Assembly (NCBI GenBank): GCA_902610175.1
Contig: CACLUR010000001.1
Location: forward strand, 1-64,000
Direction of reading: 5' to 3'
DNA: 64,000 bases
From: an uncultured Alphaproteobacteria bacterium
Lineage (GTDB): Bacteria > Pseudomonadota > Alphaproteobacteria > HIMB59
The translations under genes were made by a program, and so were the position numbers. The notes under the pieces were generated by a model that saw only the letters and a list, made by a program, of their open reading frames with translations, searched no databases and was not told where the DNA came from. Shown here one piece after another: positions 2,635 through 15,828 of the stretch. Each line of letters starts with the position of its first letter. Positions within the stretch are counted from its first letter, which is position 1.

Positions 2635-4080
2635 TTAATCCTCTACAATCATAGTGTCTTTTGAGCCTCCACCTTGTGAACTATTAACTATCGTACTTCC
2701 CTTTTTAAGAGCAACTCTAGTCAAACCGCCCATAGTTACGTATGTCTCTCTTCCAGAGAGAATAAATGGTCGCAAATCTTGATGTCGAGGTTCAATTAAA
2801 TTCCCTTGCAAAGTTGGAGTAGTTGATAATATTTCTAAAGGTTGAGCAATAAAGTTTCTTGGGTTATGTAAAATTTTTCTAATATATGCCTCTCTCTCAG
2901 ATTTAGAGGATTTAGGTCCTACTATAATTCCATATCCACCAGATCCATCTGCTGGTTTTACTATCATTTTTGAAATATTTGATATTACATGATCTCTCTC
3001 GGATTTAATGTGACATAAATATGTCTCTACTTGGTCTAATTTAGGCTCTTCATCTAAATAATATTTAATTATTTTAGGAACATATGAGTATATAACTTTA
3101 TCATCTGCTACACCACTTCCAGGTGCATTTAGAAGACCAACATTGCCTTTTCTATAAGATTTATACAAACCCGCTACACCTAACAAAGACCCTTTAAAAA
3201 AAGTCTTGGGATCTAAAAAAGTATCATCAATCCTTCTGTATATGCAATCAACCCTCAAACCCCCTTTGACTGTCTTTACGTAAACTTTATCATTTTCAAC
3301 ATAAAGATCTTTTCCTTCAACAAGAGCAATTCCCATTTGTTGTGCTAAAAATGAATGTTCAAAGTAAGCAGAGTTATATACTCCTGGCGTTAGTACAACC
3401 ATTGTAGGGTTATTTTTTTTATAAGGTATTGCATCTAACATACAATGATAGAGTCTATTGCAATAGTGATTGATCGGTGAAACTCTATAACGAGTAAATA
3501 ATTCAGGAAATACCTCTCCCATTACCATTCTGTTTTCAAGCATGTATGAAACACCTGAAGGAACACGAAGATTATCCTCTAACACTAAAAATTTTCCATC
3601 AATGTTTCTTATTAAATCTATTCCTGAAATATGAGACCAAATTTTTCTTTTAGGCATAAATCCTTCACATTGTTTTAAATAATTTTGAGATTTAAATACT
3701 AAATCTTTTGGAACAATGTTGTCTTTAAATATTTTTTTTTGATTATAGACATCATTAATAAAAAGATTCAATGCTTTACACCTTTGTATTAACCCTTTTC
3801 TTACCTTAAGCCATTGGGATTTAAGAATAATCCTTGGAATAATATCCAATGGCCATTTTTTTTCCTCTGCAGCTTTTTTATCAGCTGAGTAAACTTTAAA
3901 ATTAATGCCACGAGAGCTTATTGTGCTTTGACAATTTTGTTCAATTTTTTCTAAATCTTTGATTGAGTAACTATTTAATATTTTAGAAATTACTTTAGCT
4001 TCTTTTCTTAGACTTTTTTCAGGAGTTAAATACTCATCATAGCTATTTTTTGAATTGTAATTTTTCCAGTTTATGCTCAC
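2635..4080 (-). CDS. circularly permuted ATP-grasp ligase (DUF404/DUF407 family)
   Basis: The 481-residue protein matches the circularly permuted ATP-grasp type 2 family in length and motifs. VLEDNLRVPSGVSYMLENR lies near residues 166-184, VKPADGSGGYGI near 374-385 (phosphate-binding loop), and PRHQDLRPF plus the end SSQGGGSKDT supply the remaining nucleotide and Mg sites. Family members are predicted amide or peptide ligases that typically sit with an alpha-E (DUF403) protein, a transglutaminase-like protease and the Anbu peptidase. Here only Anbu is adjacent, divergently transcribed from a 105-bp intergenic region that must hold both promoters. Substrate unknown. Confidence 0.88.
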   Translation of the reverse strand: MSINWKNYNSKNSYDEYLTPEKSLRKEAKVISKILNSYSIKDLEKIEQNCQSTISSRGINFKVYSADKKAAEEKKWPLDIIPRIILKSQWLKVRKGLIQRCKALNLFINDVYNQKKIFKDNIVPKDLVFKSQNYLKQCEGFMPKRKIWSHISGIDLIRNIDGKFLVLEDNLRVPSGVSYMLENRMVMGEVFPELFTRYRVSPINHYCNRLYHCMLDAIPYKKNNPTMVVLTPGVYNSAYFEHSFLAQQMGIALVEGKDLYVENDKVYVKTVKGGLRVDCIYRRIDDTFLDPKTFFKGSLLGVAGLYKSYRKGNVGLLNAPGSGVADDKVIYSYVPKIIKYYLDEEPKLDQVETYLCHIKSERDHVISNISKMIVKPADGSGGYGIIVGPKSSKSEREAYIRKILHNPRNFIAQPLEILSTTPTLQGNLIEPRHQDLRPFILSGRETYVTMGGLTRVALKKGSTIVNSSQGGGSKDTMIVED

Positions 4081-4185
4081 TGCTTAAAAATACAACAAAT
4101 GCCTATCAATAGTTATGCATAGTTTAGATTGAAGGTATGTAAATAATCGTTTGTATTTTTAAAAAATTAGCTATTTAATTAAAAT

Positions 4186-4911
4186 GTGACTTACTGTGTA
4201 GGAATAAAAGTGAATGAGGGGATGGTTTTTGCATCTGACAGAAGGACAAATGCAGGCCTAGATAACTTTAACTCTTATTCTAAAATGTATGTCCATAAAG
4301 GCATTGATAGAAATATAATAATTTTAACTTCAGGAAATTTAGCTACTTCTCAAGCAGTTTTTAATTCAATTGGAAAAGATCTAGAGGATGATAAAAACGG
4401 GAATAATTTAAATAATTTATTTAATTTAAATGAAATTGCAAAATACATCGGGAGATTAAATGTTAAACATTCCTCACCAGATGGTATTAATCAAGAAACT
4501 ATTGAATTAGGTTCAACTTTTATAGTTGGAGGACACATAAAAGATCAAGAGTCAGAATTATATTTAGTCTATCCACAAGGAAATTTTATTAAATCAAGCG
4601 AATTTAAACCTTATCTTGTTATTGGAGAAATAAAGTATGGTAAACCCATATTAGATAGAGTTGTTAAGTCCGATACATATTTAGGTGACGCTGCAAGATG
4701 TGCATTGATAAGTATGGACAGTACAATGAAAGCAGATTTATCTGTTGGTCCGCCAATTGACTTAGTTGTATATAAAAATAATTTATCAAAAATAGTTTAC
4801 GAACAATCTCTTGAAATTAACGATGATGATTATCAATACATATCAAAACAATGGGAAAAAGGAATATTTGAAATTTTTAAATCTTTCGATCGTTTTAAAT
4901 GGGAAGAATAA
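4186..4911 (+). CDS. Anbu proteasome-like peptidase
   Basis: The 241-residue protein is an Anbu (ancestral beta subunit) Ntn hydrolase. It begins MTYCVGIKVNEGMVFASDRR, so removal of Met would expose the catalytic Thr2 without a propeptide. The FASDRRTNAG segment supplies the conserved Asp, and the Lys of the catalytic set is expected around 33-38 (YSKMYV). LGSTFIVGGHI and DAARCALISMDSTMKADLSVGPP match the later proteasome-fold strands. Anbu forms large self-compartmentalised rings in other bacteria; the physiological substrate is not known. It diverges from the ATP-grasp ligase, its usual partner, and is followed 3 bp later by a small membrane protein. Confidence 0.9.
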   Translation: MTYCVGIKVNEGMVFASDRRTNAGLDNFNSYSKMYVHKGIDRNIIILTSGNLATSQAVFNSIGKDLEDDKNGNNLNNLFNLNEIAKYIGRLNVKHSSPDGINQETIELGSTFIVGGHIKDQESELYLVYPQGNFIKSSEFKPYLVIGEIKYGKPILDRVVKSDTYLGDAARCALISMDSTMKADLSVGPPIDLVVYKNNLSKIVYEQSLEINDDDYQYISKQWEKGIFEIFKSFDRFKWEE

Positions 4912-4914
4912 AAA

Positions 4915-5073
4915 ATGGAGCCCTCATCCTTTGTAGCAAATTTATCAAGTATTGTTGTAATTAGTCTAGCATTAATTTCTTTTTACCTTATGGCTAGAAA
5001 AAAAGGTAAATATGTAGATATAATATTTGGTTTTATTTTAGGAATAATTGTTCTTCTTAAAATTATTTATTGA
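4915..5073 (+). CDS. small two-helix membrane protein (52 aa)
   Basis: ATG at 4915 begins 3 bp after the Anbu stop, and an open frame of 52 residues ends at TGA 5071-5073. It encodes two hydrophobic stretches (SSIVVISLALISFYLM and IIFGFILGIIVLLKII) separated by a short basic loop (ARKKGKYVD). This predicts a hairpin membrane protein with both ends outside and the positive loop in the cytoplasm. The close spacing suggests co-transcription with Anbu. I do not recognise a family. Its last 7 bases overlap the end of the minus-strand Cys-rich micropeptide gene. Confidence 0.55.
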   Translation: MEPSSFVANLSSIVVISLALISFYLMARKKGKYVDIIFGFILGIIVLLKIIY

Positions 5074-5147
5074 CAACAACCGTCACCACAAGTGCAACAG
5101 CATGAGCAAGAACAACCACAATCAGGTTTTGGTTTATTATTATCCAT
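5067..5147 (-). CDS. Cys-rich micropeptide (26 aa), metallothionein-like in composition
   Basis: On the minus strand, ATG (5145-5147) to TAA (5067-5069) encodes 26 residues: MDNNKPKPD followed by CGCSCSCCCTCGDGCCQ. Nine of 26 residues are Cys, all in the C-terminal 17, in C-x-C and CCC arrangements typical of metal-thiolate peptides. No clear Shine-Dalgarno sequence precedes it, but an AT-rich leader with a CATAATATTG block lies upstream. Metal binding or detoxification is one reading; a modified-peptide precursor is another. The reading could also be a chance Cys-rich frame, but codons TGT and TGC are both used and the start and stop fit tightly. Confidence 0.45.
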   Translation of the reverse strand: MDNNKPKPDCGCSCSCCCTCGDGCCQ

Positions 5148-5236
5148 AAATTTTAAATATCATTTTTTTACAAAAATTACAATATTATGAGAATAAATTA
5201 GTAAATAATAATAAATTAGCTAACTTTTAAATTTAA

Positions 5237-5851
5237 ATGAAATCTCTTCTTAAAGGCATTGGTGGCAAAAAAGACATAGAAAACTACTATGACAACTGGT
5301 CCAGTTCATATGATGAGACGTTGTATAAATGGAACTATAAAGCGCCACTGCAATCAGTTAATATCTTAAAGAAATATATCAAAACAAAACCAAGATTTAT
5401 TTTAGATTTAGCATGTGGCACAGGACTTTTTGTTGATAAATTTTTACAGGCTTACCCTAACTGTATTTGTGATGGGTCAGATATTTCTAAAAAAATTTTA
5501 GACATATCTAGAAGAAATGGAAAATATAGATATCTTTATAAAAAAAGTTTTGAGAATAAAATTCAAATAATCAATAAATACAATATCGTTAGTCTTATTG
5601 GCGCAATGACATATTGTAAAAATCATCAATCACTTTTTAAACTGGTTTCTTATTATCTTGCAAAAAATGGTTATTTTATTTTTACTCAAAGAGTAGATTT
5701 ATGGAAAGAATTAAAATTTGATAATGTCTTAGAAAAATTAACTGATTTCAACTCGATCTATATATCAAGACCTTTAAATTATCTTCCAAACAATAAAGAT
5801 TTTGGTTCAGATATTAAAATTAGGATAGTCTTATTAAAAAGGAATAATTAA
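5237..5851 (+). CDS. class I SAM-dependent methyltransferase
   Basis: A 204-residue protein with a Rossmann-type SAM-binding core. Motif I is ILDLACGTGLF at residues 55-65, an acidic turn GSDIS follows at 80-84, and VSLIGAMTYC is the motif near 118-127. The N-terminal YYDNWSSSYDE is typical of WBSCR27/Williams-type methyltransferases acting on small molecules or lipids. The target cannot be predicted. It is the first gene of a short plus-strand run that continues into two tiny membrane proteins and the tRNA-Thr cassette region. Confidence 0.8.
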   Translation: MKSLLKGIGGKKDIENYYDNWSSSYDETLYKWNYKAPLQSVNILKKYIKTKPRFILDLACGTGLFVDKFLQAYPNCICDGSDISKKILDISRRNGKYRYLYKKSFENKIQIINKYNIVSLIGAMTYCKNHQSLFKLVSYYLAKNGYFIFTQRVDLWKELKFDNVLEKLTDFNSIYISRPLNYLPNNKDFGSDIKIRIVLLKRNN

Positions 5852-5860
5852 AGTTAGAAA

Positions 5861-6049
5861 ATGATTTGGGAGATTATTTTTTGGTTGTTTTTAATCCCCT
5901 TAATTATATTGGGACTTCATAAACTATTTAGATACAGTGCTATCGGGATACCCTTTATTAGAAACAACAAAAAGCTATATTGGGTATTTATGATTGGATT
6001 AGTCTTGTTAATAAACTATCTGGTAGATAAGTTTTACCTTGTGAATTAA
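5861..6049 (+). CDS. small membrane protein (62 aa)
   Basis: A 62-residue protein with two predicted membrane helices (about residues 4-20 and 41-57) and a basic loop between them (IRNNKKLYW). It starts 9 bp after the methyltransferase stop and is followed 2 bp later by another small membrane protein, so the three genes look like one transcript. No family recognised. It lies just before the tRNA-Thr fragment array. Confidence 0.5.
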   Translation: MIWEIIFWLFLIPLIILGLHKLFRYSAIGIPFIRNNKKLYWVFMIGLVLLINYLVDKFYLVN

Positions 6050-6051
6050 TC

Positions 6052-6237
6052 ATGTCAGTTATTATTGAATTAACAAAAAACCCTAATTTAATGTGGTTTG
6101 TATCATTTGTTTTTTTAGCAATTACATTTGCCACATGGCGTGTGAGTCAAAATAATTATAAATGGAAAATTATTTATGAAATCTCTAAATACCTGACAGC
6201 AGGCTGTCTTTTGTTAATGTTTTTTAATATGTATTAA
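6052..6237 (+). CDS. small membrane protein (61 aa)
   Basis: A 61-residue protein with hydrophobic segments at about 13-29 (LMWFVSFVFLAITFATW) and 46-60 (YLTAGCLLLMFFNMY), and a polar middle RVSQNNYKWK. Start 2 bp after the preceding gene suggests coupling. It is not recognised. It is the last gene before the first tRNA-Thr 5'-half copy, so it probably marks the chromosomal edge of the cassette array. Confidence 0.5.
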   Translation: MSVIIELTKNPNLMWFVSFVFLAITFATWRVSQNNYKWKIIYEISKYLTAGCLLLMFFNMY

Positions 6238-6259
6238 AAGTTTATAGTTTCTAAGAAAT

Positions 6260-6297
6260 GCCGCTGTAGCTCAGTGGTAGAGCACACCCTTGGTAAG
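6260..6297 (+). pseudogene. tRNA-Thr 5'-half fragment, copy 1
   Basis: These 38 bases match the intact tRNA-Thr(GGT) at 9078 from base 1 to just past the anticodon loop (…CACCCTTGGTAAG), with one mismatch (C to T at tRNA base 6). After that the sequence diverges completely, so there is no 3' stem, T-arm or CCA. It cannot fold as a tRNA. Its position before a cassette, and the end of homology at the anticodon loop, suggest an attachment-site remnant. Confidence 0.85.
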
Positions 6298-6389
6298 AAG
6301 ATACTACCCTTGATAATAAGGAATTCTATGATCATTTGTGTAATTTTGTGTCAAAAAAATTTTAAATTAATATAAATTGGATATTTAAG

Positions 6390-7595
6390 ATGAGTTCAGA
6401 TTTAAAAAAACAAGAAAATATTCAAAAAGCACAAGTATTTCTTCAAGCAGCTCATCTTTATCAAACATCAAAAATAGCAAAAGAGATATCTGGTTTGAAA
6501 AAACTTCAAACTGAAAGCAATGAAATTCAAAAAGTAATGAGTGAAAATCTTAGTGGGATGAATGCTAAATTAAATGAACAAAATCAAATTCTACGAAGAA
6601 AAGAACAACAAGAAAATATTGAAAGAATTGAAAAAGAAAAAACAAAAGAACTGAAAAATATTTTTTTTGATATAGTCGAAGAACTCGAAAAAATAAAAAT
6701 TTTAAAAATTAGTAATTTAGAGAAGTATTTCAAAACAATGAGTATTAAAGCTATGGCAGATAAAAATGAAATTTCACATAGAATTACTGAGGAACTTGAA
6801 GAGAAAAATCTAATTAGTCAAACTCTAAGAAATGTTCAGTCATACTCTGATGAATTAATTAGTAGTTTTGATGAAAAGGAAAATCAAGATTTTGAAGAAA
6901 TAATTTCTATTCTTGAAGTAGATGAAGAAAAAGAAATTGAAAATATTTCCTCAGATAATCTTTTTCAAACAGGTAAAAAGGTAATTAATTTACATAAATT
7001 AATAGAAAAAACATTTTCTGAGAAACCTTACCTACTTTTAAAAATTTTTGACCAAAAAGAAACTTTAAAGGAGATTCGGTATTGCTTATTCAATGAGGAA
7101 ACAACACATTTTGTATCATCAGGAAAATATTTACCTAAAATTGATTATGATGAATTATTTCTTGAAAATAATCAATCATCTGAGTTTAGTGGTCTATTGT
7201 CTGAAATAGGTTTTGATTTAATACTTACAAAAAATATTTTTGATTTTAAAAATTTTGATGTTGATATTCTAGATAAAATCATAGTTTCAAGCAAAAATTG
7301 GTTCAAAGATTTCTTTAAAGTAAGTGCTCTAAATGCAATTACACTAAAAAAAGTATCTTTTGAGGAAAAAAATAAAGTATTCAATTCTGACAAATACTCA
7401 GAAGTTGGAAATTTTTTAGTTAAAGTTTTTTTTAATGCATTAAACGAGACTTTTGGGTCATCTTTAGAAAAATTTAAGAGCGGATCTGAAAATATAAAAG
7501 ATTTAAAAAAAGATATTGAAGAAGAAAAAATGAAAGCTGCGAGAGTAATTTCTGAATATCCTTTTGTGGGCACTATTTTAGAGAACAGAAAATAA
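6390..7595 (+). CDS. coiled-coil hypothetical protein, cassette 1 cargo
   Basis: A 401-residue protein of unknown function. Residues about 1-120 are rich in Lys, Glu and Gln with heptad-like spacing (ENIQKAQVFLQAAHLYQTSK, then EKEKTKELKNIF), predicting a long coiled coil. The middle is acidic, and the last 40 residues return to a charged helix (DLKKDIEEEKMKAARVISEY). It has a single Cys and no signal peptide or obvious enzymatic motif. It is the only gene of the cassette between tRNA-Thr fragments 1 and 2. Phage or defence-related function is possible but nothing in the sequence shows it. Confidence 0.7.
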   Translation: MSSDLKKQENIQKAQVFLQAAHLYQTSKIAKEISGLKKLQTESNEIQKVMSENLSGMNAKLNEQNQILRRKEQQENIERIEKEKTKELKNIFFDIVEELEKIKILKISNLEKYFKTMSIKAMADKNEISHRITEELEEKNLISQTLRNVQSYSDELISSFDEKENQDFEEIISILEVDEEKEIENISSDNLFQTGKKVINLHKLIEKTFSEKPYLLLKIFDQKETLKEIRYCLFNEETTHFVSSGKYLPKIDYDELFLENNQSSEFSGLLSEIGFDLILTKNIFDFKNFDVDILDKIIVSSKNWFKDFFKVSALNAITLKKVSFEEKNKVFNSDKYSEVGNFLVKVFFNALNETFGSSLEKFKSGSENIKDLKKDIEEEKMKAARVISEYPFVGTILENRK

Positions 7596-7612
7596 TTATA
7601 TTTAATTTGATC

Positions 7613-7640
7613 AAAAACACATATAAATATGTTGTTTTTA
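7613..7640 (+). terminator. AT-rich hairpin with T-run after the coiled-coil gene
   Basis: Eighteen bases after the coiled-coil stop, an AT-rich inverted repeat centred on CATAT-aa-ATATG has flanking A-rich and T-rich arms and ends in GTTTTTA. This arrangement is compatible with a weak intrinsic terminator. The stem is poor in G+C, so confidence is limited. Confidence 0.4.
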
Positions 7641-7645
7641 ATTAT

Positions 7646-7682
7646 GCCGCCGTAGCTCAGTGGTAGAGCACACCCTTGGTAA
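7646..7682 (+). pseudogene. tRNA-Thr 5'-half fragment, copy 2
   Basis: These 37 bases are identical to bases 1-37 of the intact tRNA-Thr at 9078. Identity stops at the 3' side of the anticodon loop (TTGGTAA) and the following sequence (TGAAGTATTGC) cannot pair with the D- or acceptor stem. It is therefore a dead 5' half. It begins the second cassette, 1386 bp after copy 1 and 1432 bp before the intact gene. Confidence 0.88.
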
Positions 7683-7758
7683 TGAAGTATTGCTTAACCA
7701 TAATGAACAAAAATCGACAAAAACTTGTTCTTTTGGGTAATGCTAAACAAAGGTTTAC

Positions 7759-7795
7759 AGTAAATAACATAAAAAAGCGTGTAATTTCTGTACAC
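7759..7795 (+). repeat. 37-bp direct repeat A, copy 1
   Basis: AGTAAATAACATAAAAA, a 3-base variable core (AGC), then GTGTAATTTCTGTACAC. The same unit recurs at 8987-9023 with core TGT. Its right half contains a GTGTA/TACAC inverted repeat. A looser relative (GTGTAATTTTGTGTC) lies near 6337 just after tRNA fragment 1. It could be a recombinase or regulator binding site inside the cassette; no function is shown. Confidence 0.75.
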
Positions 7796-7831
7796 CTTGT
7801 TTAGTTAGGGTTAATTTTATAAAATTAGTAA

Positions 7832-7903
7832 ATGAAAACTCTCTTAGCTCTATTGTTATTAATCCCTAGTTTGAGTTGGGGCCATAACTCAGCTGGTACA
7901 TGA
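7832..7903 (+). pseudogene. signal-peptide gene stub B, copy 1
   Basis: ATG at 7832 opens a frame encoding the complete export signal MKTLLALLLLIPSLSWG, then HNSAGT and TGA at 7901. The same start is present at 8933. The 23-residue product has no mature domain, so this is probably the 5' remnant of an exported-protein gene whose body was lost or replaced. The nucleotide identity over about 50 bases to the second copy supports duplication rather than chance. Confidence 0.6.
7878..7900 (+). other. possible degenerate tRNA 5' fragment (tRNA-Ala-like)
   Basis: GGGGCCATAACTCAGCTGGT resembles the first 20 or so bases of a tRNA-Ala (acceptor strand, then a D-arm with CTCAG..GGT). It then runs into unrelated sequence. 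It overlaps the end of signal-peptide stub B. The match is short and includes an A in place of the usual G in 'AGCTC', so chance similarity is possible. Confidence 0.25.
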
Positions 7904-7985
7904 TTATCATGCAATAAAAACATTGAAAAAATTAATCAAAATTTAATAAAATTTTATTATGTTATTTAAAAAAGGAGATTAAAAA

Positions 7986-8456
7986 ATGAAAAAATTATTT
8001 ATTTTTATTTTTTTACTTTACGCAACGAATTCTATTTCAGCAGAATATAGTTTTGAATTTGAAGGAAGTTGGCTTGAAGCAGAGCCAAATGTGACAAAAA
8101 ATTTAGCATCTGGTAAAGTATTAGCAGATTTTCGTGATGTTCATGTGGTCCAATACACCAATCAACCAGAATTTTTTCCATCACTTACATCATCTGATTG
8201 TACTTCTAAAGCTATGTTAAACGAAGACACATCACTTATCTGGGTAAACATAAATTGTCATATTTCCGATATGAGTGGTGATACTTTTATGTTGTCTGGA
8301 AGTTTCAATCCAGCTCTAGGAGGAGGACAAAATATTATTCAGGCCGGAACTGGTAAATTTGAGGGTATTAAGGGTACCTCAGAATGGAAAGTTACAGGTG
8401 GTCACTTACATGGTGGTACATACGCAGGAAAAATTAATATAACTATGCCGGACTGA
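7986..8456 (+). CDS. secreted hypothetical protein, cassette 2 cargo
   Basis: A 156-residue protein preceded by a strong ribosome binding site (AAGGAG at 7972-7977, 8 bp before ATG), which is unusually good for this window. It has a signal peptide (hydrophobic residues 4-16, likely cleavage after SISA at 19). The mature part is beta-rich, and its end, IIQAGTGKFEGIKGTSEWK, resembles the 'GTGxFxGxxG' signature of allene-oxide-cyclase-like or DUF3224-type barrels. There are two Cys (about 77 and 95) that could form a disulfide. The fold guess is inference only. It is followed 29 bp later by a SnoaL-like protein. Confidence 0.65.
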   Translation: MKKLFIFIFLLYATNSISAEYSFEFEGSWLEAEPNVTKNLASGKVLADFRDVHVVQYTNQPEFFPSLTSSDCTSKAMLNEDTSLIWVNINCHISDMSGDTFMLSGSFNPALGGGQNIIQAGTGKFEGIKGTSEWKVTGGHLHGGTYAGKINITMPD

Positions 8457-8485
8457 GTATAGATTTGAATAGGAAAGGTTAAATT

Positions 8486-8854
8486 ATGGACTCAAAAGAA
8501 ATAGTACAAAAAGTTTATGACCTCTTTGGAAAAGGTGATATGGAAGGTTTCATGAATATGTTACATGACGATTTCGTTTTCATATACCCGGGTGATAAAC
8601 ACCCATTTTCAGGAACTCATAACATAGAGAGTTTTCAAGGCACATTAACGAAAATCCCTGAGCTCTGGAGTAATCTTCAAGTTACGGTAGAATCAATGAT
8701 TAGCGAAGGTGATAAAGTTTTTGTGAATACAAAAGCTACCGCTGATGGCATGGATACTATTTTTGGACACTACATGGAAGTTAAAGATGGTAAAATGTCA
8801 AAGTTTATAGCTTATGATGACACCTTAAGTATGTTCAATGCTATGAAAAAATAA
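8486..8854 (+). CDS. SnoaL-like / NTF2-fold protein, cassette 2 cargo
   Basis: A 122-residue cytoplasmic protein with the pattern of the NTF2-like (SnoaL, ketosteroid-isomerase-like) fold. An N-terminal helix (IVQKVYDLFGKGDMEGFMNM) leads into DDFVFIYPG, SGTHNIESFQGTLTKIPELW, VESMISEGDKVFVNTKATAD and a final strand with MEVKDGKMSKFIAYDDT. Members act as small-molecule isomerases, hydrolases or ligand carriers. Substrate cannot be told. The spacing suggests co-transcription with the secreted protein upstream. Both lie between tRNA-Thr fragment 2 and the intact tRNA. Confidence 0.75.
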   Translation: MDSKEIVQKVYDLFGKGDMEGFMNMLHDDFVFIYPGDKHPFSGTHNIESFQGTLTKIPELWSNLQVTVESMISEGDKVFVNTKATADGMDTIFGHYMEVKDGKMSKFIAYDDTLSMFNAMKK

Positions 8855-8881
8855 TCTTATAAATTTGTTGGAGTATAAAAA

Positions 8882-8913
8882 AGTCCCCTACCTGAATGTT
8901 TAAGTAAGGGGCT
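8882..8913 (+). terminator. GC-rich hairpin after the SnoaL-like gene
   Basis: AGTCCCCTAC and GTAAGGGGCT form a stem of about nine pairs with one C-A mismatch and one G-T pair around a 12-base loop. It lies 27 bp after the SnoaL-like stop and is among the most GC-rich spots nearby. The T-run that would complete an intrinsic terminator is missing (CTACTTCGACC follows), so it may instead be an mRNA 3'-protecting hairpin. Confidence 0.45.
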
Positions 8914-8932
8914 ACTTCGACCATATAAAGAA

Positions 8933-8995
8933 ATGAAAACCCTCTTAGCTCTATTGTTATTAATCCCTAGTTTGAGTTGGGGTGATAGTAAATAA
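8933..8995 (+). pseudogene. signal-peptide gene stub B, copy 2
   Basis: ATG at 8933 encodes MKTLLALLLLIPSLSWG, then DSK and TAA at 8993. It is nearly identical at the DNA level to the stub at 7832 (ACC instead of ACT at codon 3) up to AGTTGGGG, after which the two diverge. No mature domain remains. Its stop overlaps direct repeat A copy 2. Confidence 0.6.
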
Positions 8996-9023
8996 CATAA
9001 AAATGTGTGTAATTTCTGTACAC
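8987..9023 (+). repeat. 37-bp direct repeat A, copy 2
   Basis: Same unit as at 7759-7795, with the central three bases TGT instead of AGC. The order with stub B is reversed between the two sites: repeat A then stub B at 7.76-7.90 kb, stub B then repeat A at 8.93-9.02 kb. The pair therefore brackets the two cargo genes of cassette 2. Confidence 0.75.
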
Positions 9024-9077
9024 TTAATTAAATCTAGCACTTGAGAGTTAAGAAATATCCCTATAAATAGTACTTAT

Positions 9078-9152
9078 GCCGCCGTAGCTCAGTGGTAGAG
9101 CACACCCTTGGTAAGGGTGGGGTCGGAAGTTCAATTCTTCTCGGCGGCACCA
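9078..9152 (+). tRNA. tRNA-Thr (GGT)
   Basis: A complete cloverleaf. The 7-bp acceptor stem GCCGCCG/CGGCGGC is perfect, and the D-arm reads GCTC-AGTGGTA-GAGC. The anticodon stem CACCC/GGGTG encloses loop TTGGTAA (anticodon GGT), and the T-arm contains GTTCAATTC. The discriminator is A and CCA is encoded (9150-9152). This is the only intact copy; two 5'-half copies lie upstream at 6260 and 7646. Confidence 0.95.
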
Positions 9153-9186
9153 CATAAGTTAAATTTCTTTAAAATGGTTTTATTAG

Positions 9187-9630
9187 TTAGTAATTTAGTA
9201 TTTGTTCGAAAATTGACACATCTATGTAGTCAATAAATAACTCACTTGCTGCGCTAACTCCTTGGTCTTCCATTAACTCTGTCATTGCTATTTCTCCCAA
9301 AAGCTCAAATGCATAATAAACACTTTCTTCACCCTCGTATTCCATAGCCATATTTAACTCTTCGTTACACTTATATGCAAAAACATTGGTCATATAGTCA
9401 GCTACTCTTATGTTAACCATTTCAACATCATCGGCTGTTAAGTTAGACAAATCCATGAGCTGGGGGTGAAATGACATTGTCACATATATCCATCTAACTA
9501 AATCAGTTTTTTCTTGAGTTGTTGTTTTCATCACAATGCATTTAGCAAACTCATCTGTAAATGGACCAGAGAATAAGTTTAAATTAAAACTGAAAATAAT
9601 AATAAAGCAGTATTTGATAATTTTTTTCAC
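9187..9630 (-). CDS. small secreted hypothetical protein
   Basis: A 147-residue product that uses a GTG start (9628-9630); an ATG one base upstream in another frame is not usable. It has a signal peptide (KKIIKYCFIIIFSFNLNLFS, cleavage near FSG). The mature part is helical and acidic (MEYEGEESVYYAFELLGEIA), with two Cys at about 31 and 112. It resembles small alphaproteobacterial periplasmic helical proteins of unknown role, but I cannot name a family. The leader upstream contains the candidate structured RNA at 9686-9782. Confidence 0.6.
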   Translation of the reverse strand: MKKIIKYCFIIIFSFNLNLFSGPFTDEFAKCIVMKTTTQEKTDLVRWIYVTMSFHPQLMDLSNLTADDVEMVNIRVADYMTNVFAYKCNEELNMAMEYEGEESVYYAFELLGEIAMTELMEDQGVSAASELFIDYIDVSIFEQILNY

Positions 9631-9685
9631 ATTTAATGATAAACTAATTTATGAGAGATATTCAATAACTAAAGTGACAAAAAGC

Positions 9686-9782
9686 AGAAAAGAGCCTCAG
9701 TTGTCTCGACTTAGTTCCGGTTTCCCTTCTCTACGCCTCTACTTCTTTAGCTCTTTTCTTTGTTTTGGGAAGTTTCCTACCC
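9686..9782 (-). ncRNA. candidate structured RNA or 5' leader element
   Basis: AGAAAAGAGC (9686-9695) and GCTCTTTTCT (9750-9759) are perfect 10-bp complements enclosing 54 bases. Next to them, 9767-9782 folds into a second hairpin that on the minus strand reads GGGTAG-GAAA-CTTCCC, a GNRA-type tetraloop. The enclosed part is purine-rich on the minus strand and includes GGGAAACCGG. The element sits 56 bp upstream of the GTG start of the minus-strand secreted protein, so it may be its leader or a separate small RNA. It does not match a riboswitch class I know. Strand is inferred from the GAAA loop and the downstream gene. Confidence 0.4.
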
Positions 9783-9886
9783 TCTACATTTACTAATATA
9801 AATTAATTTATTTTTTTTGGCAATATAAGAAACTTAAAAAATAAATTTTTCTGTTTATAATTTGTGAATAAGTATTTTAGATTAAA

Positions 9887-10330
9887 TTAAATATTAGATA
9901 GTTCGTTAATTACATTTTTTACATGATCTTTTACTCTGACATTACTCCAGGTTTTTACGATTTTTCCTTTTTCATTTATTAATACTGTCGATCTAATTAT
10001 CCCATAATATTCTTTTCCTAAAAATTTTTTTAATCCCCAAGCTTTATATTTTTTTAGAACAATAGTTTTTTCATCAGACAATAATTCAAATTTTAACTTA
10101 TTTTTTTCTTTAAATTTTTTATGACTTTCAATTGTATCTTTAGATACACCTACAACAATTGCATTATTTTTATTAATAAATTTAATTGAATTGTTAAAAT
10201 CATTAGCTTCTATAGAGCAACCCTTTGTATTATCTTTAGGGTAAAAATACAAAATTATATTTTTTCCAAGATTATCACTTAGTTGAAATGTACCTGACGT
10301 GCTTGGTAACTTGAAATTAGGTGCTTTCAT
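9887..10330 (-). CDS. bcp: Bcp/PrxQ-type peroxiredoxin with one Cys
   Basis: The 147-residue protein matches thioredoxin-dependent thiol peroxidases of the Bcp/PrxQ class: APNFKLPSTSG at the start, YPKDNTKGCSIEANDF with the peroxidatic Cys38, VGVSKDTIESHKKFKEKNKL, and RSTVLINEKGKI. These enzymes reduce H2O2 and organic peroxides in the cytoplasm. In E. coli Bcp the resolving Cys lies five residues after the peroxidatic one; here that position is Asn43, and no other Cys exists in the chain. The protein therefore probably works as a 1-Cys enzyme resolved by an external thiol. It ends 23 bp before the thioesterase start. Confidence 0.88.
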   Translation of the reverse strand: MKAPNFKLPSTSGTFQLSDNLGKNIILYFYPKDNTKGCSIEANDFNNSIKFINKNNAIVVGVSKDTIESHKKFKEKNKLKFELLSDEKTIVLKKYKAWGLKKFLGKEYYGIIRSTVLINEKGKIVKTWSNVRVKDHVKNVINELSNI

Positions 10331-10353
10331 CAGCCGATGATAGTAATTTTCAT

Positions 10354-10821
10354 TTACTTTTTTAACTTATCTAACAAATAAAATTCTATTGGTGAAAATT
10401 TATTTTTATTTTCAGCTATGAAATCATCCACTAACTTTATTTTATGATCTTCCATTTCAATAACTTTGCGGATACTTAAGTCCACATAAAGAGAGCAAAC
10501 TTCTGATGTAGCTGCTCTAAAATTTCCACTTTTACTCACAATTTCCAATTGATATACAAATCTTTTTTTATCACGGTCTAAAAACAATAAGTTAATATCA
10601 ACTTCATCTCCTTCTTTTACCTCTTGGATATATTTAGTATGAGACTCTACAGCAAATGTTGATCTTTTCTCATTTTTTGCTGACTCTCCTCCCATTTGAA
10701 ACCTATCTAATAATACATCCCATCCTTGATCAAATAAGTGAATATAAAAAGCCAAATTCATATGGCCGTTATAATCTGTCCATTCGGGGATAATTTTTTC
10801 TGTTCTGAGATATATAGACAT
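10354..10821 (-). CDS. 4HBT thioesterase, betainyl-CoA-thioesterase-like
   Basis: A 155-residue hotdog-fold protein. The N-terminus IIPEWTDYNGHMNLAFYIHL holds the 4HBT catalytic region (Asp in WTDYNGHMN), and FAVESHTKYIQEVKEGDEVD matches the second strand block. The 'IPEW-x-DYNGHMN' form is characteristic of thioesterases found beside or fused to L-carnitine dehydrogenase, which hydrolyse betainyl-CoA. A 3-hydroxyacid dehydrogenase-type gene lies divergently next to it, but that protein is closer to hydroxyisobutyrate dehydrogenases, so the carnitine role is only suggested. The 82-bp gap to 10904 contains both start regions. Confidence 0.75.
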   Translation of the reverse strand: MSIYLRTEKIIPEWTDYNGHMNLAFYIHLFDQGWDVLLDRFQMGGESAKNEKRSTFAVESHTKYIQEVKEGDEVDINLLFLDRDKKRFVYQLEIVSKSGNFRAATSEVCSLYVDLSIRKVIEMEDHKIKLVDDFIAENKNKFSPIEFYLLDKLKK

Positions 10822-10903
10822 TGATTGATCTTATAAAAATTATTTAATATTAACATTGAAAAATTTAGTAATATTATTTTTTTTAATGAACAAAGGAGAG
10901 CAC

Positions 10904-11845
10904 ATGAAAGTAGGTTTTATTGGATTAGGTAATGTGGGAGGGAAACTTGCAAGCAACCTTTTAGAAAATAATTTTCAATTATCGGTTTTAGATAAAAATA
11001 GCAAGTTAATGAATGAATTTGAATTAAAGGGTGCAAATACAACCAAATCAATAAAAGATCTTGTTATAAGTTCTGATATTTTAATCACTTGTCTTCCCTC
11101 ACCAGAGATATGTGCGGAGGTTTTAGAGTCCAAAGATGGTATTATCAACACAATACAAAAAGGTCAAATTTGGATTGAGATGAGTACAACTGAAAATGAT
11201 CAGCTAAAAAAACATGCATCATTAATTCAGCAGAAAAATGCAATAGCTTTAGAAGCCCCAGTAAGTGGGGGTTGTCATAGGGCTGCAACCGGTAACATTT
11301 CTATTTTTGTTGGAGGCAGTAGAGAGGGATTTGATAGAGCTATGCCAGTATTAAAATGTCTCGGTAGAAAAATTTTGTATACAGGAGACTTTGGAAGTGC
11401 ATCCATTCTTAAAGTTATTACTAATTATTTGGCTACTGTTCACTTAGTTGCATTAGGAGAAGCTTGGGCTATAGCAAGTAAATCTAATCTTGATTTAAAC
11501 AAAACATACAAAGGAATTGCAGCTTCCTCAGGTAACTCGTTTGTCCATGAAACTGAGAGTCAGGTAATATTAAACGGTTCATATAATATAAATTTTACTA
11601 TGGACTTAGTTGAGAAAGATTTAGGACTTTTTCAGGATCTCGCCACAAAACTTGGGATCGAATTAGAGATATCACCTTTGATTCTTGATATTATTAAAGA
11701 TGCAAGAAAGAGGTTTGGTGATCGTGCATGGTCGTCAATGGTAGTTAAAAGGCTTGAAAATAAATACAATACTGCGTTTAGAGCTGAGGGGTATCCTGAG
11801 GAGTTGATTGATTTAGAGAAAAAAAGCCTTGGTTATGAGATATGA
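10904..11845 (+). CDS. 3-hydroxyisobutyrate dehydrogenase family oxidoreductase
   Basis: I place the start at ATG 10904, not at the upstream in-frame ATG 10856. AAGGAG (10893-10898) lies 5 bp before it and the Rossmann strand (MKVGFIGLGNVGGKLASNL) begins exactly there. The resulting 313 residues match beta-hydroxyacid dehydrogenases: the GxGxxG NAD(P) loop at residues 7-12, LPSPEI near 76, the substrate-binding APVSGG near 120, and the catalytic Lys in SILKVITNYLA near 170. Members oxidise 3-hydroxyisobutyrate, tartronate semialdehyde or related acids. The next gene is a BASS carrier 29 bp downstream, suggesting uptake and oxidation of an organic acid. Confidence 0.88.
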   Translation: MKVGFIGLGNVGGKLASNLLENNFQLSVLDKNSKLMNEFELKGANTTKSIKDLVISSDILITCLPSPEICAEVLESKDGIINTIQKGQIWIEMSTTENDQLKKHASLIQQKNAIALEAPVSGGCHRAATGNISIFVGGSREGFDRAMPVLKCLGRKILYTGDFGSASILKVITNYLATVHLVALGEAWAIASKSNLDLNKTYKGIAASSGNSFVHETESQVILNGSYNINFTMDLVEKDLGLFQDLATKLGIELEISPLILDIIKDARKRFGDRAWSSMVVKRLENKYNTAFRAEGYPEELIDLEKKSLGYEI

Positions 11846-11874
11846 TTATTTTAAGTTTTTGTTAATATTTATCT

Positions 11875-12720
11875 ATGAATTTCATAACTGATGTAATTCT
11901 TCCTTTAGCCTTAGCTTTTATTATGTTCACTCTGGGCTTAGGTTTGACATTCTCAGATTTTGCCAGAGTAATAAAGGCACCCAAAAATTTTATTATAGGT
12001 TTAATTAGCCAATTAATTTTTCTTCCAATAGTTGCTTTAATAATTGTTTTGGTTTGGCCACTTCAACCTGAATTAGCTATAGGTTTAATTTTAATTGCTG
12101 CAGCTCCAGGTGGAGTAACTTCTAATATTCTTACTTCTTTTGCTAAAGGGGATGTTGCTCTATCAATATCTTTAACTGCAGTGATGAGCCTTTTAAGTGT
12201 AATTTCTGTGCCTTTAGTTTTGGGGATATCGATGGGATTAATTTCTGACAATTCTTTGGGCTCAATCTCACTGACAGGAATAGCTATAAGTATGTTTTTG
12301 ATAGTAACATTACCTGTTTTAATTGGAATGACTTTCAGAGCTAGCTTATCTTTTTTAACCAAGAGAATTGAGAAGTTTGCTAAAATACTTTCAACTGCTT
12401 TATTTGTTTTAGTTTTGATTGGAGCTATTTTAGCTGAGAGAGAAAATTTAGTTGAGTATTTTGCTCAAACTGGATTGGTAGTCCTTTCTCTCAATTTATT
12501 AATGATGATAATTGCTTTTTACTGGGCAAAGTTTTTTGGAACAGGAACCTCACAACAAAAAGCTATTTCAATAGAGTGTGGACTTCAAAATGGAACATTA
12601 GCAATTTTTGTAGGCACAAGTGTTTTTGGTGGTGGACTGTATATTATACCAGCTGCCACATACAGCGTCATAATGTATTTAACTTCTTTAATTTTTATTT
12701 ATTTTATCAGAAATCGTTAA
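11875..12720 (+). CDS. BASS-family (bile acid:Na+ symporter-like) transporter
   Basis: A 281-residue integral membrane protein with about nine or ten hydrophobic helices. FTLGLGLTFSDF in helix 1 and AAAPGGVTSNILTSFAKGD near residues 80-98 are hallmarks of the BASS family; the latter is one of the crossover Na+/substrate sites. ECGLQNGTLAIFVG near 234 is the second. BASS carriers import organic anions such as bile acids, pyruvate or pantothenate with sodium. Marine bacteria lack bile acids, so an organic acid is more likely. It is probably in one operon with the hydroxyacid dehydrogenase upstream. Its stop overlaps the convergent gene by 4 bp. Confidence 0.87.
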   Translation: MNFITDVILPLALAFIMFTLGLGLTFSDFARVIKAPKNFIIGLISQLIFLPIVALIIVLVWPLQPELAIGLILIAAAPGGVTSNILTSFAKGDVALSISLTAVMSLLSVISVPLVLGISMGLISDNSLGSISLTGIAISMFLIVTLPVLIGMTFRASLSFLTKRIEKFAKILSTALFVLVLIGAILAERENLVEYFAQTGLVVLSLNLLMMIIAFYWAKFFGTGTSQQKAISIECGLQNGTLAIFVGTSVFGGGLYIIPAATYSVIMYLTSLIFIYFIRNR

Positions 12721-13124
12721 ATATAAATCTTATCTGCAAGTCCAAAACAAAGAATAGCCCAACCTATTGCTAGACCTCCTGTTGATAACCATCCTTCTCT
12801 TGAATATTGGTCAGTTCTTCCTAATTTATCAATCTCACCAGTGTAAAAAGCTGATATTGCTATAATGGTCATGATTATAAACATAAAATTAAAGAATGCC
12901 CATGTAGCCTCTGTGCCTCTAAATAAAATGTATAACTGCATTAAAACTGCACCTACAATTACGGCGCCAGCAAACCTAGCAAAAAATGCTGCTGTCACAT
13001 CAATTCCATATTTGCTTATGAAATTTTTGGTATTAAACAAACAGTTAAAGCCGTAAAAAGCATTCATCACTAAAATAATTAAAAAAATTACTAAATAAAA
13101 TATTCCGTTAAAATTTCCTATCAT
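12717..13124 (-). CDS. four-helix integral membrane protein, unknown function
   Basis: The 135-residue product has four predicted helices (about 7-28, 45-68, 72-92 and 115-132). The loop between helices 3 and 4 is polar (TGEIDKLGRTDQYSREGW). The 'FFARFAGAVIVGA' motif in helix 2 recurs in small uncharacterised alphaproteobacterial membrane proteins, but I cannot assign a domain. It overlaps the BASS stop convergently and shares no operon. Confidence 0.6.
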   Translation of the reverse strand: MIGNFNGIFYLVIFLIILVMNAFYGFNCLFNTKNFISKYGIDVTAAFFARFAGAVIVGAVLMQLYILFRGTEATWAFFNFMFIIMTIIAISAFYTGEIDKLGRTDQYSREGWLSTGGLAIGWAILCFGLADKIYI

Positions 13125-13214
13125 ATGAATCTCCCATTTTCTATTTTATCAGATTTTTATCTTTAATGGCTATGAATTATTATTTTTTTATGTCATGAAT
13201 ATTGAGATAAATTT

Positions 13215-13850
13215 ATGATCGAACTTGATATATTTTCAGATACTGTTTGCCCGTGGTGCTATATTGGTAAAAAAAGATTAGAAAAAGCTATTAGTAATCA
13301 CAAAGATACAAAATTCAAACAAACCTGGAGACCTTTTCAATTGAATCCAGGAATGCCTCCTGATGGAATGGATAGGCAAGAATATTTAATTTCTAAATTT
13401 GGAAGTGCTGATGCAGCAAAGACAATTTATGACAATATCTATGATGAAGGACTTGTAGAAGGAATTAATTTTAACTTTGACTCTATCATGAAAACCCCTA
13501 ATTCCTTTAATTCACATAGACTTTTAGCTTTAGCATATAAACAGGGTATACAGGAAAATGTTTTAGATAATTTATTTGAGTCTTATTTCTTAAATGGTGA
13601 AGACATAGGTGACCCCAATGTATTGTTGGATATAGCTATAAAACATAAAATTGGTGCTGAAGATTTTAAAAGTTATTTGTCAGATCAAGAAAATATTGAG
13701 CCACTCGCTAATGAAGAAATTCAAGCTAGAAAGATGGGTATAAATAGTGTTCCTACATTTATAATAAATAAACAAATTGTTATAAATGGTGCTCAGACAT
13801 CAGAAAATTTTGAGATTATTTTTCAGAAGCTTAAAAATAGCTTAAATTAA
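13215..13850 (+). CDS. DsbA-family (FrnE-like) oxidoreductase
   Basis: A 211-residue thioredoxin-fold protein with active site CPWC at residues 13-16 (IFSDTVCPWCYIGKKRLEKA). The helical insertion and the cis-Pro loop MGINSVPTFIINKQIVINGA (about 174-193) identify the FrnE/2-hydroxychromene-2-carboxylate isomerase branch of DsbA proteins. There is no signal peptide, so it acts in the cytoplasm as a thiol isomerase or glutathione-linked enzyme. It is followed 41 bp later by the IMPase-family phosphatase. Confidence 0.87.
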   Translation: MIELDIFSDTVCPWCYIGKKRLEKAISNHKDTKFKQTWRPFQLNPGMPPDGMDRQEYLISKFGSADAAKTIYDNIYDEGLVEGINFNFDSIMKTPNSFNSHRLLALAYKQGIQENVLDNLFESYFLNGEDIGDPNVLLDIAIKHKIGAEDFKSYLSDQENIEPLANEEIQARKMGINSVPTFIINKQIVINGAQTSENFEIIFQKLKNSLN

Positions 13851-13891
13851 AAATTATTAGTAGAAATGCTTTTTTTCTATATATTTTGTAA

Positions 13892-14674
13892 ATGTCTTTA
13901 AAACTTAAAGATTTATCTCCATATTTAAACTTTGCAAAAAAACTTATAAATGAGTCAGAGAGAATAATAAAAAAAATGCCCTCAAATCGTCTAAAAATAG
14001 ATTTCAAATCAGATAAATCACCAGTAACTAAAATAGACATGAAAATTGAAAAAGAATTGCGATCAATGATCATTAAAAAATATCCTGGTCACGACATATA
14101 TGGAGAGGAATACAAAAATAAATCGAATAACTCTTCATTTGTATGGGTAATCGATCCAATAGATGGAACAAAAAATTTTATTAATGGAAATGGTAATTTT
14201 GGCACATTAATTTCTTTGTGTATTGATAGATCACCCGTAATTGGAATTATTAACTGTCCTGATATAAAAAAAACATGGATAGGAATTAGAGACAATGGCG
14301 CTTTTTGTAATGGAAAAAAAATTAAGAAATCTCAAAATAATTTAAACTTATCTAAATTATATTTTAGTACTTCTGGAATGACAGCTTTCAAATCAAATAA
14401 AAAGAATAAAAAATATAATGCTCTGATTAAAAAAACTAAATATGCAACGTTTGGTGGTGATTGTGTACAATACGGACTTTTAGCTGAAAAAAGAATACCT
14501 TTAGTAGTAGAGTCTTTCTTAAAACCTTATGATTATATCCCTTTAGTAAATATTGTAGAAGAGAGCGGAGGTATAATAAGTGATTGGAAAGGAAATCCTC
14601 TAAATTTTCAATCAAATGGTGATGTTGTTGCATCAATTTCAAAAAAAGCGCACCAACAATTTTTAAAAATTTAA
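13892..14674 (+). CDS. hisN: inositol-monophosphatase-family phosphatase, probably histidinol phosphatase
   Basis: A 260-residue enzyme with the Mg-binding signatures of the IMPase fold: GEEY near residue 70, WVIDPIDGTKNFI at about 89-101, and the second motif LKPYDYIPLVNIVEESGGII near 211-230. The combination GGDCVQYGLLAEKRIPLVVE plus 'PYDY' matches HisN-type histidinol phosphatases better than CysQ or SuhB. HisN dephosphorylates histidinol phosphate in histidine synthesis. No other his gene is in the window, so specificity rests on sequence only. Its stop overlaps the convergent alcohol dehydrogenase by 4 bp. Confidence 0.78.
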   Translation: MSLKLKDLSPYLNFAKKLINESERIIKKMPSNRLKIDFKSDKSPVTKIDMKIEKELRSMIIKKYPGHDIYGEEYKNKSNNSSFVWVIDPIDGTKNFINGNGNFGTLISLCIDRSPVIGIINCPDIKKTWIGIRDNGAFCNGKKIKKSQNNLNLSKLYFSTSGMTAFKSNKKNKKYNALIKKTKYATFGGDCVQYGLLAEKRIPLVVESFLKPYDYIPLVNIVEESGGIISDWKGNPLNFQSNGDVVASISKKAHQQFLKI

Positions 14675-15816: not shown

Positions 15817-15828
15817 TTATAACTCTAT

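Follow-up and report, generated by a model that had tools for sequence, protein, structure and literature searches.

Integrase-less cassettes stacked at a tRNA-Thr gene of a marine alphaproteobacterium, and their attachment arms in phages

Known elements at tRNA genes

As far as is known, phage satellites of the PICI and PLE type encode their own integrase. The two cassettes described here, which lie in front of a tRNA-Thr gene of an uncultured alphaproteobacterium of the HIMB59 lineage, are different in that they would borrow the integrase itself. A dependence on a helper phage, as described for such satellites (PMC6002521, PMC6092414), would be common to both. The catalogue of tRNA islands made with Islander requires an integrase and a length of at least 2 kb, and among its 3919 islands those with 3' fragments of the tRNA number 3760 and those with 5' fragments 159 (PMC4383910); insertion at a tRNA almost always leaves the gene its original promoter (PMC8371274). 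The locus resembles these islands in the crossover in the anticodon loop, the displaced tRNA fragment, the restored gene and the tandem array (PMC4383910), but the cassettes are 1.4 kb, have no integrase, leave 5' fragments and have exchanged the region upstream of the tRNA. Foreign DNA bounded by tRNA fragments, and empty sites in relatives, were thus found as in other tRNA islands, but not an integrase of their own.

Elements known as CIMEs, defined as decayed ICEs or IMEs, also keep their att ends, lack genes for recombination or integration and for transfer, and accrete in tandem at tRNA genes (PMC5704250). In the cassettes, however, the arm has its match in free phages, and they have no known relative among ICEs or IMEs. 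There are two further parallels in aquatic bacteria. The additive flexible genomic islands at tRNA-Lys of Ca. Methylopumilus are likewise stacked cassettes with repeated partial tRNAs in streamlined plankton, but their repeats are 20-nt tRNA ends, and att arms or a helper phage are not described in the relevant parts of that paper (PMC10872708). The tycheposons of Prochlorococcus are, according to the same paper, cargo elements at tRNA genes of aquatic bacteria, 4-200 kb long and with a tyrosine recombinase (PMC10872708); the cassettes, at 1.4 kb and without a recombinase, fall outside that definition. Finally, phages with tRNA-dependent lysogeny have been described in actinobacteriophages (PMC10865867), and Lactobacillus Lj965 and prophages of rhizobia provide comparable examples (PMC11476347). 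The phages discussed below resemble them in having a short common core, in not rebuilding the tRNA and in carrying a tRNA of the same isotype (PMC10865867), and differ in their 7-bp core, which occurs in both orientations, in being marine and in having an arm in common with cassettes.

Two insertions at tRNA-Thr(GGT)

The window, by which we mean the whole stretch of 64,000 nucleotides that was analysed, has the following arrangement at the tRNA-Thr gene.

5237..6259, + strand: conserved upstream flank that holds two small membrane ORFs besides a methyltransferase gene; about 22 congeners have it collinear with the tRNA
6260..6297, + strand: displaced original tRNA-Thr 5' half with native upstream sequence, the older junction (37/38 match)
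6290..6296, + strand: 7-bp core TTGGTAA of the anticodon loop, crossover of cassette 1, from the fragment ends in congeners
6297..7682, + strand: cassette 1, 1386 bp, bounded by core copies and missing in empty-site congeners
7683..9114, + strand: cassette 2, inserted later, 1432 bp long and adjoining the tRNA, with cores at both ends and missing in empty-site genomes
9078..9152, + strand: intact tRNA-Thr(GGT) (ARAGORN); 9078-9114 derive from cassette 2 and 9115-9152 are native, by comparison with empty sites

The original prediction placed 5' halves of the tRNA at 6260 and 7646 in front of the intact gene at 9078, with spacings of 1386 and 1432 bp, and ARAGORN and a search of the genome agree with it. 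Bases 1-38 are repeated at 6260-6297 (37/38, with one C-to-T change) and bases 1-37 at 7646-7682 (37/37). When the own genome was searched with the gene, these three places only were found, the halves with E values of 1e-13 and 1e-15, and a reversed-pattern control gave zero matches in 52 genomes. Both halves stop, as was also predicted, at the 3' edge of the anticodon loop: base 37, where the homology ends, is the last base of the 7-nt loop TTGGTAA (copies at 6290-6296, 7676-7682 and 9108-9114), and base 38 of the first copy is a chance G.

The census of the site was made on separate genome stretches. About 22 congeners have an empty 5' site, where the flank at 5237..6259 directly adjoins tRNA-Thr; in one such genome (L035) window positions 3625-6297 and then 9076-16000 are collinear, at 92.6% and 97.9% identity. 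Another 11 congeners have different DNA at the 5' site, partly stacked, and where a 5' half can be detected there, its last base is almost always the same; halves ending at base 37 with differing cargo are found in G003, G009, G064, G066, G071 and G072. Empty, filled and differently filled sites thus occur among the congeners, and the relatives do not all share the two cassettes. By these comparisons both intervals are insertions that restored the 5' half of the gene at the anticodon loop, stacked in two rounds as had been proposed. Restoration of the 5' instead of the commoner 3' half is a rare type known from Islander (159 of 3919; PMC4383910). That the halves arose by ordinary local duplication, for which direct repeats of similar spacing could speak, has next to no probability, since the copies differ beyond base 37 and in the sequence upstream of each, the cargo is foreign and the empty sites refute it.

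As a refinement of the earlier picture, tRNA-Thr is used from both sides. Cassettes on the 3' side, leaving 3' halves, were found at more than 10 loci in other genomes. In congeners the 5' fragments stop at base 37, whereas the beginning of most 3' fragments lies at bases 24-31; the loop is therefore their common part.

Cassette 1 has the following parts.

6335..6359, + strand: arm site holding TTTGTGTAATTTTGTGTCAAAAA, in tandem units of about 11 bp, with a match to viral contig L370
6390..7595, + strand: ORF of 401 aa, the cargo
7596..7682, + strand: restoring end, an imported promoter-like stretch and the tRNA 5' half, recognised by likeness to other cassette ends

The 401-aa ORF gave zero matches in Pfam and has no relative in other genomes among the 52 congeneric ones searched. 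The upstream stretch of the restoring end is similar to cassette ends in L043, L044, L045, L054 and L056. The arm units occur on the left side only and the two arms are dissimilar to each other. Several elements have arm repeats at both ends, among them cassette 2, whose parts are as follows.

7683..7802, + strand: phage-type att arm (P' arm), left end, with a match to viral contigs L354/L360
7759..7795, + strand: arm repeat of 37 nt, left copy
7832..7882, + strand: signal-peptide block (MKTLLALLLLIPSLSWG), left copy of a repeat pair
7986..8456, + strand: exported protein of 156 aa, cargo, with relatives in G064, G028 and G031
8486..8854, + strand: SnoaL-like protein of 122 aa, cargo (PF12680, E 1.5e-12)
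8931..8982, + strand: signal-peptide block, right copy
8987..9023, + strand: arm repeat of 37 nt, right copy, within the restoring end
9040..9077, + strand: imported promoter-like upstream sequence of the intact tRNA, by genome comparison

The two internal repeat pairs are absent from the original prediction. The 37-nt arm repeat is significant against dinucleotide shuffles (p<=0.005), and the signal-peptide block has more than 100 matches, in 44 of the 52 congeners. The sequence at 9040..9077 is common to G030 and G010 and unlike the native upstream sequence of empty-site genomes, whereas the displaced half at 6260 still has that native sequence in front of it. A promoter scan gave no excess over chance. 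Nine of 12 cassettes are co-directional with the displaced tRNA promoter, which is not significant; a theft of the promoter for the cargo is an idea at most.

The 156-aa protein is 92-99% identical in G064, G028 and G031, where it is located before tRNA-Ala(GGC). The cargo DNA is 96-98% identical to that of the tRNA-Ala islands while the flank is about 80%, a contrast which suggests a recent transfer. The cassettes could spread mainly when DNA of different cells recombines homologously, in the flanks, the tRNA halves or the signal-peptide blocks, as in additive flexible genomic islands, and such recombination would fit both the cargo in common with the tRNA-Ala islands and the fact that the match begins at the signal-peptide block in one of three genomes. 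It would however leave the crossovers at the loop edge, the arm repeats and the identity to phage att arms unexplained, and we find it very improbable as the main process, though it may rearrange the cargo in addition.

Phages with the same attachment arm

Candidate helper phages were identified by the arm sequence. Window positions 7693-7802 are identical to viral contigs L354/L360 in 110 of 110 nt, at equal distance from the core, and the homology stops at 7802. The distance from the core to a 27-mer is exactly 41 nt in the window and in all 18 viral contigs compared. The arm of another cassette, L065, is 112/113 identical to the phage arm, and on the 3' side L042 and L064d are 96.5% and 95% identical to phages with the core TTACCAA. 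An integrase gene (PF00589) adjoins attP in these phages, its product being 380 aa long in L352, and only the 7-bp loop TTGGTAA is common to phages and tRNA-Thr. The phage core occurs in both orientations (TTGGTAA/TTACCAA); the flip is seen between contigs that are 99.3-99.5% identical and requires at least three changes on the tree. The two orientations account for mirror-image cassettes on both sides of the tRNA. Four of the 19 viral records, of which the other 15 are fragments, encode tRNA-Thr(GGT), the sole tRNA type found. With their short core, a host tRNA that is not rebuilt and a phage tRNA of the same isotype, these phages are predicted from sequence to have tRNA-dependent lysogeny.

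For cassette 1 the match to viral contigs is limited to 25 nt of one contig: 6335..6359 is identical in 25/25 nt to the P' arm of L370, at bases 39-63 from the core versus 40-64. The arms of the 5'-side cassettes in L043, L044, L064 and L120 had no viral match. Neither the 3' half nor the common promoter-like end turned up in any viral contig, nor did the TTGGGTACAC arm and that of L043/L044. The cassette att site was not found in IMG/VR, but most viral contig sets would leave out elements as short as 1.4 kb. Five viral contigs with a 31-nt tRNA-Thr 5' half (L123-L127) were rejected as unrelated, having whole or longer tRNA copies. Neither the phage integrase nor lysogens were found in the 52 congeneric genomes, and the link to the host therefore rests on the common att arm and the target tRNA.

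The left junction has exactly the shape of a phage attL, and the halves could be scars of phage entry, each leaving a 5' half and an arm, with the phage lost and the tRNA repaired by recombination that brought in the cargo. But the phage sequence amounts to no more than about 120 bp and its boundary is always the same, with homology ending at phage positions 118-120 in 6/6 cassettes of this family of arms; repair from a sister strain should return the native promoter, yet the tRNA has an imported one, and there are mirror forms and many cargos with the same ends. We hold such scars to be improbable.

Origin and significance of the cassettes

That neither cassette has an integrase, as originally noted, was borne out: PF00589 was not found in either, nor were integrase remnants. 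The own genome has no phage-type integrase and one Xer-like match only. XerCD was considered as the recombinase and rejected; the Xer-sized matches are distant from the site and the arms suit a phage-type integrase. In viral contigs, a search for the A1 integrase family found no close helper. A recombinase gene beside the same tRNA, as one would look for in sister genomes, is present in a sister species (L053), in an element on the 3' side.

The cassettes could also be decayed autonomous islands of the CIME kind, whose own integrase was lost, leaving a tandem scar, and whose likeness to the phage arm reflects common descent of att sites. Integrase-bearing islands do exist, on the 5' side of tRNA-Ala (L075/L128) and, as in L053, at this tRNA-Thr. 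Some integrase-less elements resemble decayed islands, such as L117, which keeps an integrase N-terminus (E 2e-4) and has arms in common with L053, and the own genome has a weak integrase remnant at tRNA-Arg(ACG). We nevertheless think decay unlikely for the window cassettes, which have zero integrase remnant; old decay does not fit an identity with free phages over 110 nt, which is too recent, and the phage homology has one common boundary and does not trail off.

The explanation that we favour, and consider probable, is that small integrase-less cassettes with a hybrid att site of phage arm and tRNA half were inserted serially through a phage integrase acting in trans. Cassette 1 would have entered the anticodon loop of tRNA-Thr(GGT) first, and cassette 2 then the restored gene. 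One half of the cassette att would be a phage attP arm with the arm-type sites of the integrase, and the other a replacement upstream region with the tRNA 5' half, so that insertion would leave a working tRNA with a new promoter. The recombinase would come from infecting phages, members of a marine group that is not in culture, which would break tRNA-Thr without rebuilding it, at least some of them bringing their own tRNA-Thr(GGT). Since the loop stem is palindromic and the core either TTGGTAA or TTACCAA, the same arm could come to lie on either side of the gene, 5' or 3', giving cassettes that restore either half. The proposal that the cassettes are satellites mobilised in trans is thus supported directly by the att arms in common with integrase-encoding phages, while the mobilisation itself, and transfer between cells, would follow from this model.

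We are evenly divided on the wider proposal, that these are minimal satellites which borrow the integrase of tRNA-dependent temperate phages and spare the host tRNA that the phage would break, that flipping of the 7-bp core gives access from either side, and that through them streamlined marine bacteria gain genes to a substantial extent. It addresses the acquisition of genes by streamlined plankton, in which prophages are few. If true, cassettes of one or two genes would need no more than a phage arm plus half a tRNA to enter the chromosome by way of the phage integrase, and they would be overlooked by island finders whose criteria are an integrase and 2 kb. Marine phages would be predicted to have tRNA-dependent lysogeny, and the palindromic target, together with the two orientations of the phage core, would explain 5'-type islands.

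Insertions in front of tRNA-Thr

The intact tRNA-Thr(GGT) gene is preceded in the window by two partial copies of itself, and these bound two cassettes:

6260-6297: tRNA-Thr bases 1-37, with one mismatch
6297-7682: cassette 1 (1386 bp)
7646-7682: tRNA-Thr bases 1-37
7683-9114: cassette 2 (1432 bp)
9078-9152: intact tRNA-Thr(GGT)

The original prediction had placed the copies at 6260, 7646 and 9078, and its positions, spacing and fragment end point are correct. A search of the whole own genome (1.385 Mb in 16 contigs, from a genus of at least 52 species) with the tRNA-Thr(GGT) gene matched only the intact gene and the two partial copies. The named sister genomes are single cells of uncultured marine Alphaproteobacteria (AG-900-J20, AG-893-E21, AG-390-I07). 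In the sister genome G024 (stretch L035), window 3625-6297 is joined directly to 9076-16000 (92.6% and 97.9%), and both cassette intervals are therefore missing there. Such alignments show the two intervals to be insertions and not a duplication.

It had been proposed to look for relatives with no cassettes or other cassettes, and both occur: by our count the 5' site is empty in about 22 congeners and occupied in 11 genomes other than the window. The 5'-side cargo is never the same twice, and includes long helicase-like proteins, acyltransferase-like, HNH, hydrolase-like and exported proteins (the HNH protein is named by Pfam; names without a Pfam call are our reading of the sequences). Detectable 5' fragments stop at tRNA base 37 in G003 (two), G009, G064, G066, G071 (two) and G072; the exceptions are G071, whose third fragment is shorter (bases 1-32), and G032, whose copy is full-length but degenerate. 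On the sister stretch L051 a full-length, degenerate tRNA-Thr copy (8241-8313, 85%) precedes an acyltransferase-like cassette, half copies elsewhere being exact, and in G071 an inverted tRNA-Thr 3' half lies within the stacked 5'-side region (L120 12111-12155).

Other genomes have cassettes behind tRNA-Thr that left 3' halves, most of them starting at bases 24-31, with outlying starts at base 11 (L053), 16 (L041) and 50 (L118). The 5' and 3' fragments overlap in the 7-bp anticodon loop of tRNA-Thr, which is where the crossover would most simply be put. A 234-bp insertion behind tRNA-Thr (L121 10064-10252) has att arms and no cargo gene.

Upstream of the 6260 fragment lies the sequence that is native to tRNA-Thr in empty-site genomes, and a different one precedes the intact gene. 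The two stacked rounds of insertion that had been predicted can thus be ordered, cassette 1 first and cassette 2 second, and each cassette imported a new upstream region together with its 5' half. Cassette right ends fall into a few sequence families, common to cassettes carrying different cargo. The imported region presumably acts as promoter, and a consensus promoter scan gave nothing above chance. Since bacterial tRNA genes targeted by islands nearly always retain their own promoter (PMC8371274) and 5' fragments make up just 4% of Islander islands (PMC4383910), the polarity seen here is the rare one, in line with the claim that the 5' half is restored instead of the commoner 3' half.

Phage arms at the cassette ends

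A 27-nt stretch of the cassette 2 left arm is present in 18 IMG/VR viral contigs. In 18/18 it is preceded, at exactly 41 nt, by TTGGTAA or TTACCAA, as it is by TTGGTAA in the window. The search patterns for arms were picked from the window; this does not hold for the core, for its distance or for the two orientations. The same arm is identical to viral contigs L354 and L360 over 110/110 nt, the match ending 120 from the core, and phage homology stops at phage positions 118-120 in 6/6 cassettes of this arm family. A 5'-side cassette (L065) matches viral contig L364 at 112/113, three 3'-side ones (L042, L064d, L122d2) match TTACCAA-core contigs at 96.5, 95 and 89.6%, and L041 matches a viral arm at 92% over a shorter stretch. 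The cassette 1 arm agrees with viral contig L370 at 25/25, in register, and the L370 left arm recurs over 18-25 nt in the 3'-side cassettes L049, L121 and L122d. Altogether a phage arm was matched in 11 of the 26 cassette ends compared, and some 5'-side arms had no match among the viral contigs. In our reading the cassettes join a phage arm to a tRNA half.

The core reads TTGGTAA in nine viral contigs and TTACCAA in nine others. Since a palindromic stem surrounds the loop, both core forms can meet one tRNA site in opposite directions, and the same arm is therefore predicted on either side of the tRNA; it was found so. The tree of viral contigs requires at least three changes of core orientation, and the core of L356 is opposite to that of L355, L361, L362 and L366, which are otherwise 99.3-99.5% identical to it over 1.5-3 kb. 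Such an inversion between near-identical phages amounts to a change of three central bases.

Integrases, possible island decay and probable movement of cargo

A PF00589 search of the own genome gave one match, Xer-sized, and the window cassettes are without integrase, as had been claimed. When a recombinase was sought beside the same tRNA in sister genomes, as also proposed, one was present in G001 only, on the 3' side. The arm repeats of the G001 element are TTGGGTACAC in tandem, found also in the integrase-less stretches L040 and L117, the latter retaining an integrase N-terminus. The main rival explanation is that integrase-less elements arose by decay of autonomous islands (CIME), and it accounts for some neighbouring elements. 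Repeats common to both arms were found in 8 of 22 elements tested (p<=0.005), cassette 2 included; the other 14, cassette 1 included, had none at this threshold.

For the window cassettes the simplest mechanism would be insertion in trans: a phage integrase supplied by infection would bind the cassette arm and insert the cassette, whose tRNA half would keep the tRNA-Thr gene working. Both integration in trans and transfer of cassettes from cell to cell are what we infer from the sequences. The integrase of this phage group is absent from 52 congeneric genomes.

The cargo appears to move by a second route too, because near-identical cassette 2 cargo sits at tRNA-Ala elsewhere: in G064, G028 and G031 it precedes tRNA-Ala beside the same signal-peptide blocks and is 96-98% identical, with flanks at about 80% where aligned. 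The DNA block that encodes the signal peptide MKTLLALLLLIPSLSWG (7832-7882 and 8931-8982; also L080) is repeated in islands of the genus before different mature proteins, and may be a joint at which cargo recombines.

Among the 35 tRNA/tmRNA genes covered by a census of the own genome, tRNA-Arg(ACG) has another pair of stacked 5' halves (C3:5794-8666, L247) and tRNA-Gly(GCC) has one 3' half. The proximal cassette of the tRNA-Arg stack has a 109-aa ORF that weakly resembles an integrase N-terminus (E 0.025), and the tRNA-Gly fragment, 4.5 kb downstream, bounds an island with a methyltransferase-like gene (C1:484688-489236, L245). Sister genomes have 5' halves also at tRNA-Arg(TCG) and tRNA-Ala(GGC), and in G069 the integrase of the tRNA-Ala element (PF00589) lies on the 5' side. 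Of 51 integrases that are related to it and adjoin a tRNA, 45 are on the 3' side of that tRNA and 6 on the 5' side, the side having switched four times on their tree. Elements of about 6 kb with an integrase lie between two complete tRNA-Gly(GCC) genes in five stretches (L074, L082, L132, L133, L136).

The phages and their tRNA

Beside the phage attP is the gene for a tyrosine integrase of 380 aa (PF00589 E 1.9e-18; PHROG integrase 1.7e-25), which has about 25% identity to known phage integrases. Nearby are an exonuclease, an Erf-like annealing protein, an endolysin and a small ORF at the usual position of an excisionase. Phage and tRNA-Thr have only 7 bp in common, and phage insertion would therefore split tRNA-Thr(GGT). 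Four viral records (L352, L353, L354, L363) have a tRNA, tRNA-Thr(GGT) each time, that of L354 being about 73% identical to the host gene; the remaining 15 are fragments without tRNA and uninformative on phage tRNA content. A short att core together with an own tRNA-Thr(GGT) is the same design as in tRNA-dependent lysogeny (PMC10865867), of which a similar case is found in rhizobia (PMC11476347). We predict that these uncultivated marine phages with a 7-bp core use tRNA-dependent lysogeny, which would place it outside the groups where it has been described.
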